Part shown: positions 7,520 through 51,144 of the stretch, piece by piece
How positions within the stretch are numbered: position 1 is the stretch's first letter
Layout: every line of letters starts with the position of its first letter
NCBI GenBank assembly: GCA_022447605.1
Contig: JAKVBG010000001.1
Coordinates: 62,001 to 126,000 of the forward strand
Source: Mariniblastus sp.
GTDB taxonomy: Bacteria > Planctomycetota > Planctomycetia > Pirellulales > Pirellulaceae
Reading direction: 5' to 3'
DNA: 64,000 nucleotides
Position numbers and translations under genes: made by a program
The notes under the pieces: model-generated
The model's input: the letters and a program-made list of their open reading frames with translations, nothing else
What the model was told of the DNA's origin: nothing
Databases searched by the model: none

Positions 7520-8165
7520 TATTGCGCCATTGAACCGAGAACGGCCCCTGTTTCTTGCCAATCCCGTGTACTTGCAGACCGATGAACCCTTTGGGGTGGG
7601 ACTTGAACTTCTCTTCATCGACTAGATCTTCCACCGGTTCGCCATTGATCCAGGTCTGAATGCGCGGCCCCTTGGCAATCACTTTATACGAGTTCCACTG
7701 ACCATTCTTGAAGTGTTCATGCTTTGCCTTGTGCTTCTCCGGGGCCGACATCCAGCCACCCGAGGCTTCCCCGTAAATCAAGCCTGCCTGTCCAGGGCCT
7801 GCTTCAATTTCGACTTGCGGCCCGTTGACGCGACCGTTCGGTTTATCCTTCGTTTGCGAGCGAATTTGCACGCCCGAGTTAAGCTTGTTGTGAACTTTCA
7901 CTTCGAATTGCAGTTCGAAATCACCGTATTCCCGCTTCGTGCAAAGAAACGAGTTGGGACTCCCCTCCGAGGTCGTTCCCTTGACCGTGCCATCCACCAC
8001 TTCGTAGGTAGCGGTCCCGTTTTTCTGCGTCCAACCATCGAGGTCTTTCCCGTTGAACAGGGTGGTCCAACCATCGTCTTCCGGCGCAGAAGTATTTTCT
8101 GGCACCTCCGCCAGAACATTTCCGGAAACAAATAAACTGATCAAAATCGCAAGGCGAGGAAACAT
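7494..8165 (-). CDS. Secreted DUF1080 / 3-keto-disaccharide hydrolase domain protein
   Basis: The 223-aa product starts at the ATG at 8165, which gives a clean signal peptide (MFPRLAILISLFVSGNVLAE); the ORF-track start at 8213 adds 16 unlikely residues. The mature part is one DUF1080 (PF06439) lamin-G-like fold: WTTLFNGKDLDGWTQKN opens the domain and later GVQIRSQTKDKPNGRVNG, GGWMSAPEK and GFIGLQVHG follow the family pattern. Family members bind or cleave sugars, and some hydrolyse 3-keto-glycosides. It is convergent with, and overlaps by 26 bases, the RND gene. A second DUF1080 protein is at 63201. Confidence 0.88.
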   Translation of the reverse strand: MFPRLAILISLFVSGNVLAEVPENTSAPEDDGWTTLFNGKDLDGWTQKNGTATYEVVDGTVKGTTSEGSPNSFLCTKREYGDFELQFEVKVHNKLNSGVQIRSQTKDKPNGRVNGPQVEIEAGPGQAGLIYGEASGGWMSAPEKHKAKHEHFKNGQWNSYKVIAKGPRIQTWINGEPVEDLVDEEKFKSHPKGFIGLQVHGIGKKQGPFSVQWRNIKIREIGD

Positions 8166-8265
8166 TTCAACCACCTGAATCAGAAACGGGACAGAATCGC
8201 GGTCAGCGAACACTCGCCAAACCTGTTAACATGATCGTTGGATTATACAGTAAAAGCAGGACCGG

Positions 8266-8562
8266 GTGACCATTGCCCACCGCCTGAATTCCGAGAGGAA
8301 AAAATTGAGACCTTTAAAGCCCGATGCCAGCCAATGCCCCAACGACCTGGAGGGTTGTGACTTGAAATGCAAGTACAACTTCTTCGAATCCGAGGAACTG
8401 ACCATCCATGCCTACGAGTTGAAGTGCCTGAATTGCGGCTGGCGTGAAACGATCGGCTACCGCAGTGACGAAGCGGATGAGAACGAGGAGACCAATCCCC
8501 GGCAATGTCCATTCTGTGACGCCTGCGATTTAAACCCAGGGCGCAACCCTTGCGGAGGGTGA
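8266..8562 (+). CDS. Small zinc-ribbon-like protein, conserved-looking, unknown function
   Basis: The 98-aa soluble protein has paired cysteines: CPNDLEGCDLKC, LKCLNCGW and CPFCDAC. This arrangement suggests one or two bound zinc ions. No other domain is recognised. Two starts are possible: the GTG at 8266 with a weak AGGA upstream, or the TTG at 8305, which has a better Shine-Dalgarno (GAGAGGAA) seven bases away and would give 85 aa starting RPLKPDASQCP. It is divergent from the DUF1080 gene and convergent with the secreted protein downstream. Confidence 0.6.
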   Translation: MTIAHRLNSERKKLRPLKPDASQCPNDLEGCDLKCKYNFFESEELTIHAYELKCLNCGWRETIGYRSDEADENEETNPRQCPFCDACDLNPGRNPCGG

Positions 8563-8593
8563 AACGTTTTCCATCGACCCGCAGTCGATAACC

Positions 8594-9235
8594 CTAAAAG
8601 GCAATGAAGCGGAAAATATTCCGTATCGGTTCCCCATCGACATAAGCCTGCGACTTTCCAAACAGACTTTTCCCCAAGTAGGTGCCCGGCGGGAGATTCT
8701 GGTAACGTGTCGGCTCGAACAAGGTGCCTGACGTCGCCGGCTCGTTGGTGGACAGGGCGTAGCGGGCAGTGTCGACGCCCGCATTGGTCGAGGAAGCAGG
8801 CAATAACCCCGGAACGGCCTGGTAGGCGGTCGGCTCGGTGGCCTTGCATTGACAATCGTCAATCACCGGTCGAGGGCGGCTCGGCCCCATTCCCAGAGTC
8901 GGTGACTGGAAATTGACATTGCGCGGACCCGGGTTCACAGCCGGCAATCGGTTCAATACGTTCTCGTCTCTTCCCGAAGTGGGAACGATTGTTGGCACAG
9001 CTCCCTGCGATTGGGGAACCGGGAGACCCGAAACAGTCGTCAGGACCTGGCCCGGATTCCCGGGAACGGATTGACTGGTAACTTTTCCCCCACCTGGAAG
9101 CGGAGAGGAAGCGAAACGGTACTCCTGCGAAGCAGCAGTCGGTCGCTGTTGGGCCAGCCCGGAAACCGGCAAGGCCAACACGATCGCGGCAGACAAGATG
9201 AGGAACGATCGAACTTGAAAGGTGCAACTTGGCAT
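8594..9235 (-). CDS. Secreted Pro/Gly-rich hypothetical protein
   Basis: The ORF-track start at 9520 is too early; the ATG at 9235 starts a signal peptide (MPSCTFQVRSFLILSAAIVL, cleavage near GLAQQ) and has GGAA just upstream. The mature protein of about 185 aa is rich in Pro, Gly, Ser and Asn, with few hydrophobic blocks and one Cys pair (DDCQCK). The C-terminus is more ordered (TYLGKSLFGKSQAYVDGEPI, then NIFRFIAF). I recognise no family; it looks like an exported, partly disordered planctomycete protein. Confidence 0.6.
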   Translation of the reverse strand: MPSCTFQVRSFLILSAAIVLALPVSGLAQQRPTAASQEYRFASSPLPGGGKVTSQSVPGNPGQVLTTVSGLPVPQSQGAVPTIVPTSGRDENVLNRLPAVNPGPRNVNFQSPTLGMGPSRPRPVIDDCQCKATEPTAYQAVPGLLPASSTNAGVDTARYALSTNEPATSGTLFEPTRYQNLPPGTYLGKSLFGKSQAYVDGEPIRNIFRFIAF

Positions 9236-14825: not shown

Positions 14826-15659
14826 CTAGGGAAGGGGTGGCTCTCGCCAACGGATTCCAATCAAGCGAAACTCGAAACGGTCTTCTACCGGGACAATCTT
14901 GAAGCGGGTCTGCTGTACTTCCGACAACTTCCATCCGAAGGCTTCGAGATAGGCGCTTTCCATCTGCCGCAGCATGGCACGGTTTTTCGTCGAATAGAAC
15001 AGTGCCGTGAAGCGATCCTCCAGATCAACACCATTCTGCCTGGCCAAGGTTTCGTCCCAGCCTGTCAACTTCTCGTTGGCATGAGTGAACCAGAGTGTCG
15101 TCCTCTCCTTGGCTCGTTTCGACTCGATCACCTGTGGCTTACCCCCCACGTCCCGAAGCCGGATGATTTCAGGAGACGTCCTTTGGACAATCCCAATATC
15201 CAGTCCCAAGAAACTGAGTTGCTTGGCATACTGCGAGATATTCTCCGCCCCGTGGTCGATCTTCCAACGCTTTTCCATGGGAACGACATTGGAAGGAATT
15301 GAGTCCCTTCGCTCTCGCCCGGCCGTTACCCAGTCCCGTCCCAAGACCTGATCCTTCTCCTGATCCTTCTCCTGATCCTTCTCCTGATCCTTCTCCTGAT
15401 CCTTCTCCTGATCCTTCTCCGTGTCCTTCTCCTGCATATCAGGAAGGAACTGAAACGCAACAAGGTTTATTTCTTCCATTACCGGAACGGGATCCGCGAA
15501 ACGGCCAGCGTCAGCCGCATCCTGACCTTCGACCCATCTTCCAGCTGGCTCCGCCCAGAGTAAAAGCAGCCCCAACCCGATCAGACAAGGCCAACCCAAC
15601 ACGTTGACCAACGTATCGCGGGGGTCAGAAATCAACCATCGGCAAACAGTTTTCATCAA
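14826..15659 (-). CDS. Membrane-anchored protein with EKDQ tandem repeat, unknown function
   Basis: The 277-aa protein has one N-terminal hydrophobic helix (about residues 18-36, VNVLGWPCLIGLGLLLLW), then a spacer containing EKDT followed by six copies of EKDQ. The C-terminal part (about residues 120-277) is globular and is largely alpha/beta by appearance. The highly charged repeat is likely a flexible linker that holds the C-terminal domain away from the membrane. No family is recognised. The ATG at 15659 is kept. It lies downstream of mnmG on the same strand with a 125-base gap. Confidence 0.6.
   Translation of the reverse strand: MMKTVCRWLISDPRDTLVNVLGWPCLIGLGLLLLWAEPAGRWVEGQDAADAGRFADPVPVMEEINLVAFQFLPDMQEKDTEKDQEKDQEKDQEKDQEKDQEKDQVLGRDWVTAGRERRDSIPSNVVPMEKRWKIDHGAENISQYAKQLSFLGLDIGIVQRTSPEIIRLRDVGGKPQVIESKRAKERTTLWFTHANEKLTGWDETLARQNGVDLEDRFTALFYSTKNRAMLRQMESAYLEAFGWKLSEVQQTRFKIVPVEDRFEFRLIGIRWREPPLP
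15348..15431 (-). repeat. 12-bp in-frame minisatellite encoding EKDQ
   Basis: Six perfect copies of a 12-base unit (plus-strand CTGATCCTTCTC), then one degenerate copy (CGTGTCCTTCTC, encoding EKDT), lie in tandem inside the gene at 14826. Because the unit is a multiple of three, copy-number change alters linker length without breaking the frame. Confidence 0.95.
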
Positions 15660-45907: not shown

Positions 45908-46285
45908 ATGATGCGGGTTTCGCAAACTGCAATTCTTGTTTTTACCGGTTACCTGGTTCTATTACTGAACCTGGGTTCCTCGCTGCATCACTCGCATTTC
46001 TTTGGTTTTCACTCCCACGCTCAAAACCAAAAACTCGAGGCCAGACCTTCAGGCTGTTGTTCCTGCCACGCTTCTGGTTCCTCCTCGACAGAGCAGCCAC
46101 TCGCCATCGGCTCTGATCACGATTGCACCCTTTGCAAATTCTTTGATCAGTATCAGGTCACGGCAGACTGGCCCGCCCCCTTGGAGTGTGCGCCGCAGAT
46201 TCAACGCTGCCGAACCATTCAACCAGCTCTCATTTTCGGCAAAGCCTTCAAGCCGAGCGCCCGCGGACCGCCGTCCATCGTCTAG
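45908..46285 (+). CDS. Small exported Cys/His-rich protein, possible metal binder
   Basis: The 125-aa protein starts with a hydrophobic signal or anchor (about 7-25, TAILVFTGYLVLLLNLGSS). A His-rich stretch follows (LHHSHFFGFHSHAQ), then Cys-rich segments (SGCCSCHASG; HDCTLCKFFDQYQ). The spacing suggests metal binding, perhaps zinc. One CxxCH-like arrangement is seen (CCSCH). No family is recognised with certainty. It is the first gene after a putative promoter and upstream of DUF1559, PEP-CTERM and MerC-like genes. Confidence 0.6.
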   Translation: MMRVSQTAILVFTGYLVLLLNLGSSLHHSHFFGFHSHAQNQKLEARPSGCCSCHASGSSSTEQPLAIGSDHDCTLCKFFDQYQVTADWPAPLECAPQIQRCRTIQPALIFGKAFKPSARGPPSIV

Positions 46286-46680: not shown

Positions 46681-47778
46681 GTGTTATCAAAAAAACCTTT
46701 GAAACCTGCCACTCCAAGCGGATTTACGCTCGTGGAGTTATTGGTCGTCATCGCAATCATTGGAATCTTGATCGGCATGCTCCTGCCGGCTGTGCAGGCA
46801 GTGCGAGCAGCAGCGAGGCGAACCACCTGCGCTAACAATATCCGGCAAATCGCCTTGGCCGTGCATAACTATGAATCGGCCAATCAACAGTTCCCCGTCA
46901 ATCAGATCGGTCCCGGAGTTTTTGATTCCGACCTGGGTGGCAACGAGACAGGCTATTACAGCTGGCTCGTCCCACTGCTGCCGTACATTGAACAAAACAA
47001 CCTGCATGATTCCTTTGATCTTCGTTACAACAACGGTGATGGCGACAGCTACAAAGTAAGCAACACGCATCATAACGCCCCGGCGGTGGCGACCCTCGTA
47101 ACGACGTTCATGTGCCCCTCCGACTTCCCGAACCTGGAGAATGCGATCATCCTTGGCTCGGCCAACCCGGCACCCAGTAGTTATGCCGGCAACGCTGGCT
47201 GGCCGTCTTACGCCACCGGCTACGCCGAAGAGCGATCCACACCCGGCCGCCACAATGGTGCCATCGCATTAATCCACCCTTCGGCACCCGTTTCCTGGCA
47301 TACCAGAACCGTTGGCATGAACAGCTTTCGAGACGGCACCTCGAACACGGCCCTGTTGGCGGAACGTCTGATCCAGTCGGGCAATAGCGCCCAGGCCATC
47401 AACGAGGGGGACAAACGCCTCCGATCGCTACACATTCTAGAGCGTTACGAAGTTCTGGATGAAATTATTGATCAGATGTCGAGCTCCCACGCACACGTTT
47501 TTGAATCAGCCCACATTGGGCGATCATGGTCGAGCGGGACGCCATTGGTCGCGCCCACGTACATGCATGTGCAACCCCCCAACTCGGTGATCGGACATTA
47601 CAACACCAGCATGGACGAAGGTGATTTTGTTGTGACGGCCAGTAGCCGTCACGCCAGTGGCGTCAACATGGCGCTGGTTGATGGATCAATACGATTTGTA
47701 ACAGATACCGTTTCGAAAGAAGTTTGGTGGGCCGCCGGCAGTCGGGACGACGGTCGAACCGAAACGATTTCGGATTAG
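46681..47778 (+). CDS. DUF1559 protein with type IV prepilin-like N-terminus
   Basis: The 365-aa protein starts at GTG 46681 with AAGGAG eight bases upstream. It has a short leader, then the prepilin cleavage/methylation motif GFTLVELLVVIAIIGILIGM, where cleavage after the Gly before FTLVE is expected. The DUF1559 domain follows: SWLVPLLPYIEQNNL, TFMCPSDFPN and, near the end, SRHASGVNMALVDGSIRFV. Planctomycetes carry many such proteins, thought to be pseudopilins or surface proteins. The prepilin-peptidase-like gene lies 1.9 kb downstream in the same direction. Confidence 0.95.
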   Translation: MLSKKPLKPATPSGFTLVELLVVIAIIGILIGMLLPAVQAVRAAARRTTCANNIRQIALAVHNYESANQQFPVNQIGPGVFDSDLGGNETGYYSWLVPLLPYIEQNNLHDSFDLRYNNGDGDSYKVSNTHHNAPAVATLVTTFMCPSDFPNLENAIILGSANPAPSSYAGNAGWPSYATGYAEERSTPGRHNGAIALIHPSAPVSWHTRTVGMNSFRDGTSNTALLAERLIQSGNSAQAINEGDKRLRSLHILERYEVLDEIIDQMSSSHAHVFESAHIGRSWSSGTPLVAPTYMHVQPPNSVIGHYNTSMDEGDFVVTASSRHASGVNMALVDGSIRFVTDTVSKEVWWAAGSRDDGRTETISD

Positions 47779-47815: not shown

Positions 47816-48598
47816 ATGAAATTGCGATGTCTTATTACGACAATCGCTCTGGCCATGATGACGACCTCTGCGTATGCCCAGCATGGGCATGCCGGGGATG
47901 TTGAATTCGGCTACGACGATATTTCAAACCCGACGGGCTTTGAAATTGAACACGATGAATTTACGAGTGACGGGCTTCTCTTCTACGAAAGCGAATTCGA
48001 AGAACTCGATCCGTTTAACCCCGGAGACTGGAGTTCAGACGAACCTGGTTTCACGACCGCATCGGCGGAAGGACTGTTGGTCAATGAGAATGACCAAATC
48101 TGGCTGCAAGCGATGGACGCGTCGAGCAATTCAAGCTTCGGTGTGGGCTATGTCAATTTTTACAACCCGGTCACAGATTCGCTGGAGGCAGTCGGGCGAC
48201 TTGGTGTCCTCGACAATTCTGCTTCGACATCGGACCTCACCCTGAATGGGGCTGGCATCGAGTCGGGAGAAAACCCCCAATTCATCGGATTGGGTGATGA
48301 TGAGGGAGATGTCCACGATCACCTGATTGTCGATCTGCTGGATGACAGTACGGCTGCCGTAGGTGCCTATGGCGTCCTATTCACGCTCCAAAGCGATTTC
48401 GCGACGGCTGACGGAACTATGGACTTAACTTCCGATCCTTTCTGGGTAATCTGGAATTACGGTATGGATGAAGAAGATTTTGACGAGTTCGCCTTGCCAA
48501 AATATGGTGCCGTAGAGGCAGTTCCTGAGCCTGCAACCATCAGCATGTTTGCGATTGGAATGGCTGCTATTATGATGCGACGACGCCGTCGTGCATAA
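47816..48598 (+). CDS. PEP-CTERM sorted extracellular protein, His/acid-rich N-terminus
   Basis: The 260-aa protein has a signal peptide (MKLRCLITTIALAMMTTSAY, cleaved near AYAQ). The mature N-terminus is HGHAGDVEFGYDD, and the middle is very acidic and beta-rich. It ends in a classic PEP-CTERM tail: VPEPATISMFAIGMAAIMM followed by RRRRRA, meant for exosortase cleavage. From memory it resembles the all3515-type Zur-repressed PEP-CTERM family, which would tie it to zinc; this is not verified. CCAGGAG precedes the ATG. A strong terminator follows the stop. Confidence 0.88.
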   Translation: MKLRCLITTIALAMMTTSAYAQHGHAGDVEFGYDDISNPTGFEIEHDEFTSDGLLFYESEFEELDPFNPGDWSSDEPGFTTASAEGLLVNENDQIWLQAMDASSNSSFGVGYVNFYNPVTDSLEAVGRLGVLDNSASTSDLTLNGAGIESGENPQFIGLGDDEGDVHDHLIVDLLDDSTAAVGAYGVLFTLQSDFATADGTMDLTSDPFWVIWNYGMDEEDFDEFALPKYGAVEAVPEPATISMFAIGMAAIMMRRRRRA

Positions 48599-48610: not shown

Positions 48611-48655
48611 GGTAATGCCGCGGTCCGGTTATCCGGGCCGCGCTTACCTTTTTTT
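48611..48655 (+). terminator. Strong rho-independent terminator after the PEP-CTERM gene
   Basis: A long stem, GGTAA + GCGG-type + CCGG, with a TTAT loop and matching CCGG...CCGCG...TTACC, ends in seven T. It begins 12 bases after the stop codon at 48598. Confidence 0.93.
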
Positions 48656-48777: not shown

Positions 48778-49614
48778 ATGGCTTACGTCTCCAGAATCCT
48801 CGCCGGGACCATGGTTCCTCGCTTATGGACCAATTCTGCCTGGAGGGATTGGGTCGGCATTGTCGCGTCGATCGGCTGTGCGATCCACTGCGCCGCGATG
48901 CCATTTGTGATTGCCTACCTGCCGGCACTGGGACTGAGCTTCCTCGCCGATGAAGGATTCCATCAGTGGATGGCGCTGGCCTGCTTTTTGATCGCCATCG
49001 TCGCCTTCGTTCCCGGGCTGAGAAAGCATGGCAACTGGATTCCTATCTCCATTGCCACGGTTGGACTTTTCATGATCACCTTTGCCGCGATGGGCTGGGC
49101 CGGAGACTGCTGTCCGTCGTGTGAAGAAAACAAATTGGCCGCATCAGGTACAACCGCTACTCTGGGAGCAGGATGCGAGGATTGCGAAGATTGTGCAACC
49201 AGCGAGGCCAACGAAAACAATTTGGCCACGTTAGCTACAGCCACTTCTCTGGGAGCAGGATGCGAACATTGCGAAGATTGTGCAACCAGCGAGGCCAACG
49301 AAAACAATTTGGCCACGTTAGCTACAGCCGCTTCTCTGGGAGCAGGATGCGAGCATTGCGAAGATTGCTCAACCAGCGAGGCCAACCAGACCGTTCAATC
49401 TACAGACAACGGTTCCCGGATTGGTATTGAGGCTGAAGAGGAGGCAGCCCTGCTGCTGCTCTTAGCACCCTGGATCACGCCAATCGGCGGGTTGCTGCTG
49501 GTGTCGGCTCACCTTTGCAATCGGCGTTTCGGCTGCCTTTGCGGATGTTGTGGCGACGTTGCAGAACCCACTGCCATGGAATTGGATCACGAACCATTCA
49601 AGATGAAGGAATGA
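48778..49614 (+). CDS. MerC-domain-like membrane protein with tandem Cys-rich repeats
   Basis: The 278-aa protein starts at the ATG at 48778; the track start at 48676 lies in the previous terminator's downstream leader. Residues about 20-115 look like a MerC-type domain with TM helices and the conserved SIGCAIHCAAMPFVIAYLPAL and LACFLIAIVAFVPGL segments. Between the helices are three copies of a 29-residue repeat (GAGCEHCEDCATSEAN, third copy partial), each with a CxxCxxC cluster. A last TM segment (LLLLLAPWITPIGGLLLVSA) and a Cys-rich tail (RRFGCLCGCCGD) follow. A heavy-metal or zinc role is likely. Confidence 0.82.
   Translation: MAYVSRILAGTMVPRLWTNSAWRDWVGIVASIGCAIHCAAMPFVIAYLPALGLSFLADEGFHQWMALACFLIAIVAFVPGLRKHGNWIPISIATVGLFMITFAAMGWAGDCCPSCEENKLAASGTTATLGAGCEDCEDCATSEANENNLATLATATSLGAGCEHCEDCATSEANENNLATLATAASLGAGCEHCEDCSTSEANQTVQSTDNGSRIGIEAEEEAALLLLLAPWITPIGGLLLVSAHLCNRRFGCLCGCCGDVAEPTAMELDHEPFKMKE
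49165..49385 (+). repeat. 87-bp tandem repeat, about 2.5 copies, encoding Cys clusters
   Basis: Units begin at 49165, 49252 and 49339. The first two are nearly identical over 87 bases; the third matches for about 45 bases and then diverges. The unit is a multiple of three, so each adds one CxxCxxC cluster in frame. Confidence 0.93.
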
Positions 49615-49653: not shown

Positions 49654-51144
49654 ATGAACCGGAATCAATCCAATCCCGCATGTCAATCGAATCCAAAACC
49701 GTTTCGGAAGCGGTTTTTCTTTGCGAACTCTGCCAATGCCTACCAAAGGTCTCTCACCGGCGAGTACGCTAATTTACTACTCGTTATCACATCTCCTCTG
49801 TTGCTGCTCTGGTTCGCCTATTCTGCATCAACGGGCCAATCCGAGCTTATCGCCCTGGTCGCCACTTCGGTGTTACTGGCCTCGCTGATGACGTTTCGTG
49901 GCTACCCCGCCGTGAGAAGTATTGTGTTGATCGCGATGACGGCCAATTTGTTCGCTCTGGTCATCAACCCGAACGTTTCCTTTGGGGAACCGGAGAAAGC
50001 GACCACGATCGTACCGACCTATGTTCTCCTGGCCTGCCTGTTGACCGCCAGTTTTTTTGAATCGAAAGCCTGGCTCCAGTCCTGCCCCCGTTCCACGCTG
50101 ATTAAACTCCTGGCATGGGGAACTCTCACCATCCCGGCAGGCCTGTACATCGTCGTGATCCCCCTGTTCGAATCCGTCTGGACCATGCTCGAGGGAGACG
50201 AAACGAAACTCGCCTTGCAGGACCCCAACTGGAATCTTCTCAATGAGATCACCTACCGGGCTGCCAAGTTTGGTATCTTTTCCGTTTTCGTGTACCTCGG
50301 CGCATGCGTCGGGAGTTTCCTGAATGTCGTCGCCTACTGCGTACCCAAGGGGGAAGGGATTGGCCTGCGGGATTCGAGGTGCCCCAAGTGCAACACCAAG
50401 CTCAGTCGGATCGATAACCTGCCGATCTTCAGCTACATCAACCTCAAGGCAAAGTGCCGAAGCTGCCAGGAACCGATCTCTATCCGTTACCTGGTCGTCG
50501 AGTTGATTGCGGCTACCATCTTTGGCTCGCTCTTCCTGTACGAGCTGGTCACGGGAGGGACGAATGTGCCATTACTGGGAGGGTTCCACGAAGGAATCCT
50601 GTGGGTGATCCTCTATCCGAAGTGGCCCGTGATCAGCGCCTATTTTCTGCACGCGTTTTTCATGTGTGCCGTATTGGTTCTAGCGCTTTTTGAATGGGAT
50701 CATCAACCACTCAAATGGACGTTTTCCATTTTTGTCGGGCTGATCTTCTTTCTCGCCACAGCGGCCTACCTGCCCATCCAACCGGTCCCACTGACCGATC
50801 ATCTGCCTGGGGTATCCCTGACCCTTTCACCCTGGGTAGGACAGTTTTTGAAAGTGGTTGTGGGGTGCTTGGCCGGTGCCGCGATTGGCCGCCTGCTGGC
50901 CATTGCGGTTGCGGCGGCAAAACCCTCGCTACTGACTTACTCGTTTTTCCTGACCGGCATGGTGCTCGGCTGGCAGGCCCTGCTGCAAGTGACAATCCTG
51001 TTTGGCATCTTGCTACTCATGGTGCGCGGTTCGACAAAATTGACCCGCTTACTGGAAGGCCGGCCGGTATCGGTCCTGCTGGTTGCCATTGCACTGCACC
51101 ACCCGTTCTGGAAGATCATCGCCGATGCGTGGCGATTCGATTGA
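49654..51144 (+). CDS. Prepilin-peptidase-like membrane protein, catalytic motif incomplete
   Basis: The 496-aa protein has about 10 TM helices. In the centre (about residues 225-290) it carries the prepilin-peptidase N-terminal module: GSFLNVVAYCVPKGEGI, a zinc motif CPKCNTKLSRIDNLPIFSYI and CRSCQEPISIRYLVVELI. True A24 peptidases need two Asp residues in TM helices, the second in a GxGD motif. I see one possible Asp (ALFEWDHQPL) but no GxGD motif downstream. It may be an atypical peptidase, or a paralogue with methyltransferase-like function only. It has a 120-residue N-terminal TM extension. AAAGGAG lies 17 bases before the ATG, a long spacing. Confidence 0.8.
   Translation: MNRNQSNPACQSNPKPFRKRFFFANSANAYQRSLTGEYANLLLVITSPLLLLWFAYSASTGQSELIALVATSVLLASLMTFRGYPAVRSIVLIAMTANLFALVINPNVSFGEPEKATTIVPTYVLLACLLTASFFESKAWLQSCPRSTLIKLLAWGTLTIPAGLYIVVIPLFESVWTMLEGDETKLALQDPNWNLLNEITYRAAKFGIFSVFVYLGACVGSFLNVVAYCVPKGEGIGLRDSRCPKCNTKLSRIDNLPIFSYINLKAKCRSCQEPISIRYLVVELIAATIFGSLFLYELVTGGTNVPLLGGFHEGILWVILYPKWPVISAYFLHAFFMCAVLVLALFEWDHQPLKWTFSIFVGLIFFLATAAYLPIQPVPLTDHLPGVSLTLSPWVGQFLKVVVGCLAGAAIGRLLAIAVAAAKPSLLTYSFFLTGMVLGWQALLQVTILFGILLLMVRGSTKLTRLLEGRPVSVLLVAIALHHPFWKIIADAWRFD

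Follow-up and report, generated by a model that had tools for sequence, protein, structure and literature searches.

The window, a 64-kb stretch of DNA, encodes on its forward strand at 48778–49614 a 278-aa membrane protein with an expanded Cys loop that belongs to the MerC family (PF03203), its match to the Pfam profile reaching 78 bits against a curated cut-off of 27.6 and bearing out an earlier note that had called the protein MerC-like. It is the sole MerC relative detected in the source genome, a Mariniblastus-like Pirellulaceae MAG of 203 contigs. MerC proteins are commonly taken to be determinants of mercury resistance. On the same strand the gene is preceded by a small His/Cys-rich predicted secreted protein (45908–46285; no Pfam match), a DUF1559 pseudopilin-like protein (46681–47778; PF07596, PF07963) and a PEP-CTERM protein (47816–48598; PF07589) that starts QHGHAGDVEFGYD after its signal, and is followed by a prepilin-peptidase-type protein (49654–51144) in which the A24_N (Cys4) domain (PF06750) was matched and the catalytic domain was not. 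The order of all five genes is common to the window and a relative's locus, L048, where the PEP-CTERM protein is 73% identical to the window copy; the conserved His/Cys-rich gene also occurs in locus L056. A strong terminator-like hairpin on the forward strand (48619–48642; 10-bp stem; fold z −2.9) lies in the gap between the PEP-CTERM gene and merC and parts the two. No zinc gene adjoins merC in the window. The DUF1559 pseudopilins and the prepilin-peptidase-type protein travel with merC, the latter lying beside it in 8 of 61 contig loci including the window, and a role of the pseudopilins in metal acquisition is possible.

An AlphaFold2 model built on a 26-sequence alignment has four helices at pLDDT of about 80, namely residues 20–51 (48835–48930), 59–84 (48952–49029), 88–105 (49039–49092) and 219–254 (49432–49539), all on the forward strand, and the hydropathy profile is consistent with this, except that it runs helices 2 and 3 together. 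Helix 1 carries CAIHC, in which C34, H37 and C38 are invariant across the 26 sequences, as are C111 and C112 of the juxtamembrane CCPSC (C111, C112, C115; 49108–49122), where the loop joining helices 3 and 4 begins. The C-terminal CLCGCC (C253–C258; 49534–49551), predicted to be cytoplasmic, includes the Cys pair expected after helix 4, with C257 invariant and C255 nearly so. Most of the repeat array described below falls within residues 124–216, which are disordered (pLDDT about 40), and the array sits in the single loop between helices 3 and 4. Across 82 members, loop 2 has a mean of 3.1 K/R and 0 D/E and loop 3 a mean of 1.5 K/R and 11.7 D/E, and these positive-inside charge counts predict that the Cys loop is extracytoplasmic. 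Searches of solved structures turned up no relative. The protein belongs to a genuine, if unusual, branch of the MerC family. As in the MerC of Tn21 and Acidithiobacillus, there is a PF03203 match, four helices, a Cys pair in helix 1 and a C-terminal Cys cluster; unlike in those proteins, the loop between helices 3 and 4 is long, Cys-rich and tandemly repeated.

Tandem Repeats Finder reports an array of period 87 with 3.0 copies at 49126–49386, its score of 438 far exceeding that of every other tandem array in the window, and the best 87-base self-match is 85/87, whereas 20 codon shuffles gave no more than 43/87. The period preserves the reading frame and each unit encodes 29 aa with a Cys cluster: unit 1 (49126–49212; ENKLAASGTTATLGAGCEDCEDCATSEAN), unit 2 (49213–49299; ENNLATLATATSLGAGCEHCEDCATSEAN) and unit 3 (49300–49386; ENNLATLATAASLGAGCEHCEDCSTSEAN), all on the forward strand. 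The earlier note had recognised the in-frame expansion of a Cys-bearing unit, which holds, and had counted about 2.5 copies, where there are three complete ones; the motif CEHCEDC that it ascribed to the unit is confined to units 2 and 3, and unit 1 has CEDCEDC in its place. Further, the near-identical pair is not the first two units, as had been claimed, but units 2 and 3 (83/87, 95%), while unit 1 matches each of the others at 77/87 (89%), so that the proposed recent expansion fits the last duplication. On these identities the likely order is an old duplication that split unit 1 from the precursor of units 2 and 3, and a recent one that gave units 2 and 3. The array is a true, recent in-frame expansion. 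The units vary at 11 codons, nine of which change the amino acid and none of which touches a Cys; because the changes are so few, the intact Cys among the window units are by themselves no evidence of selection. Antisense and frame-shifted open reading frames over the array were dropped as candidate genes, an open frame on the opposite strand being expected for any period divisible by three.

Relatives were gathered from 241 genomes of the family and from GTDB contigs, and their loops were extracted. Five non-planctomycete MerC (from the Lysobacteraceae, Mucilaginibacter and the Thermochlorobacteriaceae) have loops of 4–14 aa without Cys; planctomycete loops span 32 to 150 aa and contain Cys in every surveyed row. 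Exactly two Cys clusters are present in 66 of the 86 rows of the tree and four to six in ten intact rows, most relatives possessing one unit plus the juxtamembrane CCxxC (typically CCxxC and one CEHCEEC in relatives of the same genus) and several lineages possessing three to five units. Among the expanded loops, that of L048 has four diverged CDQCEDC-type units of 19–20 aa, that of L067 likewise has four that have diverged, and those of a Phycisphaerae group have, in addition to the juxtamembrane cluster, three or four CxxxCC units. An unrelated Pirellulaceae MAG (L077, 130–1226) has its own array in the same loop, 102 bp × 3 with a 95% match and TCDKACCEE units. Across these relatives the number of units varies and the Cys are kept, even in units whose linkers have diverged, rather than copy number being fixed and the Cys unconserved, the outcome that the earlier note had set as its refutation. 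In a related Rhodopirellula contig (L095, approximately 8001–8801) a run of N lies precisely within the corresponding loop; it may be masked sequence, or a gap left by the assembly where the repeat was longer.

On a core tree built without the loop (117 columns, 86 rows, weakly resolved), a minimum of seven changes between single and expanded loops is needed, losses included. Placing the window and L048 together is not rejected (p-AU 0.089), and the expansions in these two lineages could be a single shared one; the two loci share gene order, yet their units are 29 and about 19–20 aa long, respectively. The loop expansion was probably gained four to five separate times, and the exact number is not claimed because the tree is short and weakly resolved and the grouping of the window with L048 is not rejected.

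The expansion could reflect the adaptive change in metal-binding capacity that the earlier note suggested, and could also have arisen neutrally, if the loop were a tolerant disordered linker in which a Cys motif was copied by chance through replication slippage. Tandem repeats without Cys are present in the same loop in L057, L058 and L069, indicating that the loop may simply tolerate duplication, and the differences among the window units are too few to reveal constraint. Against this, the strongly diverged units of L048 and of the Phycisphaerae clade each retain three Cys and expanded loops recur in several lineages, and we regard a neutral origin as possible, though somewhat doubtful.

Based on Pfam assignments, the neighbours of merC in the 61 contig loci include a Fur-family regulator (20 loci), a NicO-like protein (13), CobW (10), FolE2 (8) and ZIP (4), with no mer gene among the recurrent neighbours. 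At least one of the Fur-family, CobW, FolE2 or ZIP genes is present in 32 of the 61 loci; in the remaining 29 the stretch retrieved contains no zinc gene, though many stretches are short. The earlier note had named no metal, and the gene context of the relatives points to zinc limitation. FolE2 and the COG0523 GTPases are textbook Zur targets (PMC6103462, PMC2770081). De novo motif discovery by expectation-maximisation in upstream regions, used instead of a scan for perfect palindromes upstream of genes that was too strict, returned a 21-bp palindrome, AnTTGCAATnnnATTGCAAnT, also written TTGCAATnnnATTGCAA. At ≥15 bits it has 86 sites in 761 kb versus 2 in a shuffled control, a scan that is partly circular as the training regions were chosen by the analyst, and most of the 86 sites are near zinc-type genes, including gene clusters outside the training regions. 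An independent check comes from the genome to which the window belongs: a 23.5-bit palindrome (L140:8567, contig C112) lies there between a Fur-family/Zur gene and a CobW gene whose product passes the NCBIfam cut-off for the zinc metallochaperone ZigA. The palindrome occurs ≤2.5 kb upstream of merC in 36 of 59 relatives' loci, and a variant, tATTGrCAnnnnnTGyCAaTa, with 0–2 mismatches, is found ≤200 bp upstream of all nine Phycisphaerae merC (L080, L083, L086, L089, L093, L096, L099, L100 and L102). More generally, AnTTGCAATnnnATTGCAAnT marks Fur/Zur, ZigA-type CobW, FolE2, ZIP and merC genes, with many sites in L048–L108, and in some relatives a zinc-type palindrome stands at the DUF1559 or prepilin-peptidase neighbours (L052:5723, L053:1127, L082:6141, L104:1990).

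The analysis predicts that this palindrome is probably an operator used by Zur in the Pirellulaceae and related planctomycetes; a literature search found neither a description of such an operator nor a link of MerC to planctomycetes or to the Zur regulon. The relatives share with the known Zur regulon of FolE2 and COG0523/ZigA (PMC6103462, PMC2770081) both the neighbourhood and a Fur-type palindrome, but MerC is not among the members listed in the portions of those sources available, and the window copy has no palindrome. At no gene of the window merC operon did the palindrome match, and the L048 merC likewise lacks it; zinc control of the window copy is therefore unsupported. Zinc-limitation neighbours are a feature of many relatives and not of the window copy, which seems no longer to be under the zinc operator, so that its metal is inferred from the relatives only. 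Expanded loops at first seemed to go without the operator (Fisher p = 0.0002), but this rule was dropped because seven of them belong to a single Phycisphaerae clade with its own variant palindrome, which leaves only the window, L048 and L067 as cases.

We lean, with modest confidence, towards the window gene encoding a MerC-type inner-membrane importer of a soft divalent metal, Zn(II) being the likeliest, with a loop enlarged by tandem duplication. The four helices would form the carrier, and the acidic, flexible extracytoplasmic Cys loop between helices 3 and 4 would capture the metal before entry. The ion might then pass from the extracytoplasmic thiols to the Cys-His-Cys of helix 1 and from there to the Cys of the cytoplasmic C-terminus by ligand exchange, as has been proposed for MerC and MerT (PMC5715351), the source of the analogy. 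The planctomycete loop would in this way be a built-in MerP-like acceptor, doing the job of the separate MerP of mer operons, and additional units would add capture sites, two duplications of one 29-aa unit having presumably raised the loop from the 6 Cys usual in single-unit relatives of the genus to 12. A counterpoint to the importer is that extracytoplasmic CxxC motifs could oxidise to disulfides, and the substrate of the window protein could alternatively be Cu(I), Cd(II) or Hg(II). Only tentatively is the proposal extended to the planctomycete MerC subfamily as a whole, as zinc-limitation importers in which a thiolate loop takes the place of a periplasmic chaperone and unit number is an evolvable setting of capture capacity that has been raised on several independent occasions. 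The relatives constitute a natural series of one to five loop units in which metal affinity and capacity could be measured.

The 12 Cys of the disordered, acidic loop would also suit a metallothionein-like extracytoplasmic metal buffer or sensor that is anchored by the MerC helices and holds more metal with more units; the terminal Cys clusters are short and the length of the loop varies widely across relatives, as might be expected of such a device. Metallothioneins and other tandemly expanded Cys-rich metal proteins similarly have Cys-cluster units multiplied by internal duplication, the difference being that the window units form the loop of a membrane transporter and not a small soluble protein. 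The most conserved parts, however, are the CAIHC of helix 1, the helix-4 region and the C-terminal Cys, which suggests selection on a transmembrane path and makes a buffer or sensor unlikely.

Classical mer-type uptake of mercury (or cadmium), with the extra Cys reflecting mercury exposure, would be in keeping with membership of PF03203 and with MerC being a known Hg(II) transporter (PMC5715351), but appears improbable. The source genome has no MerA above the curated cut-off and no MerT match, the latter being a weak point as the MerT search matched no control genome either. The window neighbours are not mer genes, and, unlike for the MerC of Tn21 and Acidithiobacillus, no mer operon was found, the recurrent neighbours in the relatives being of zinc type. 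A MerC homologue outside a mer operon has a precedent in the chromosomal merC homologue of Stenotrophomonas maltophilia, which adjoins a CobW/P47K (COG0523) gene (PMC5253648), though loops in the related Lysobacteraceae are 13–14 aa and without Cys. That precedent counts in favour of the importer. A large planctomycete MerC branch is tied by the present evidence to zinc limitation instead of mercury resistance.

That the third unit is an assembly artefact is very unlikely, for although the MAG is in many contigs, the unit pair is 95% identical and copy number in a near-identical repeat of 261 bp is miscountable if the assembly is of short reads, the units bear distinguishing substitutions and an analogous array is present in the unrelated assembly of L077. 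Elsewhere in the window, a separate 12-bp repeat, CCTGATCCTTCT, is present at 15347–15434 in 7.3 copies with a 96% match.
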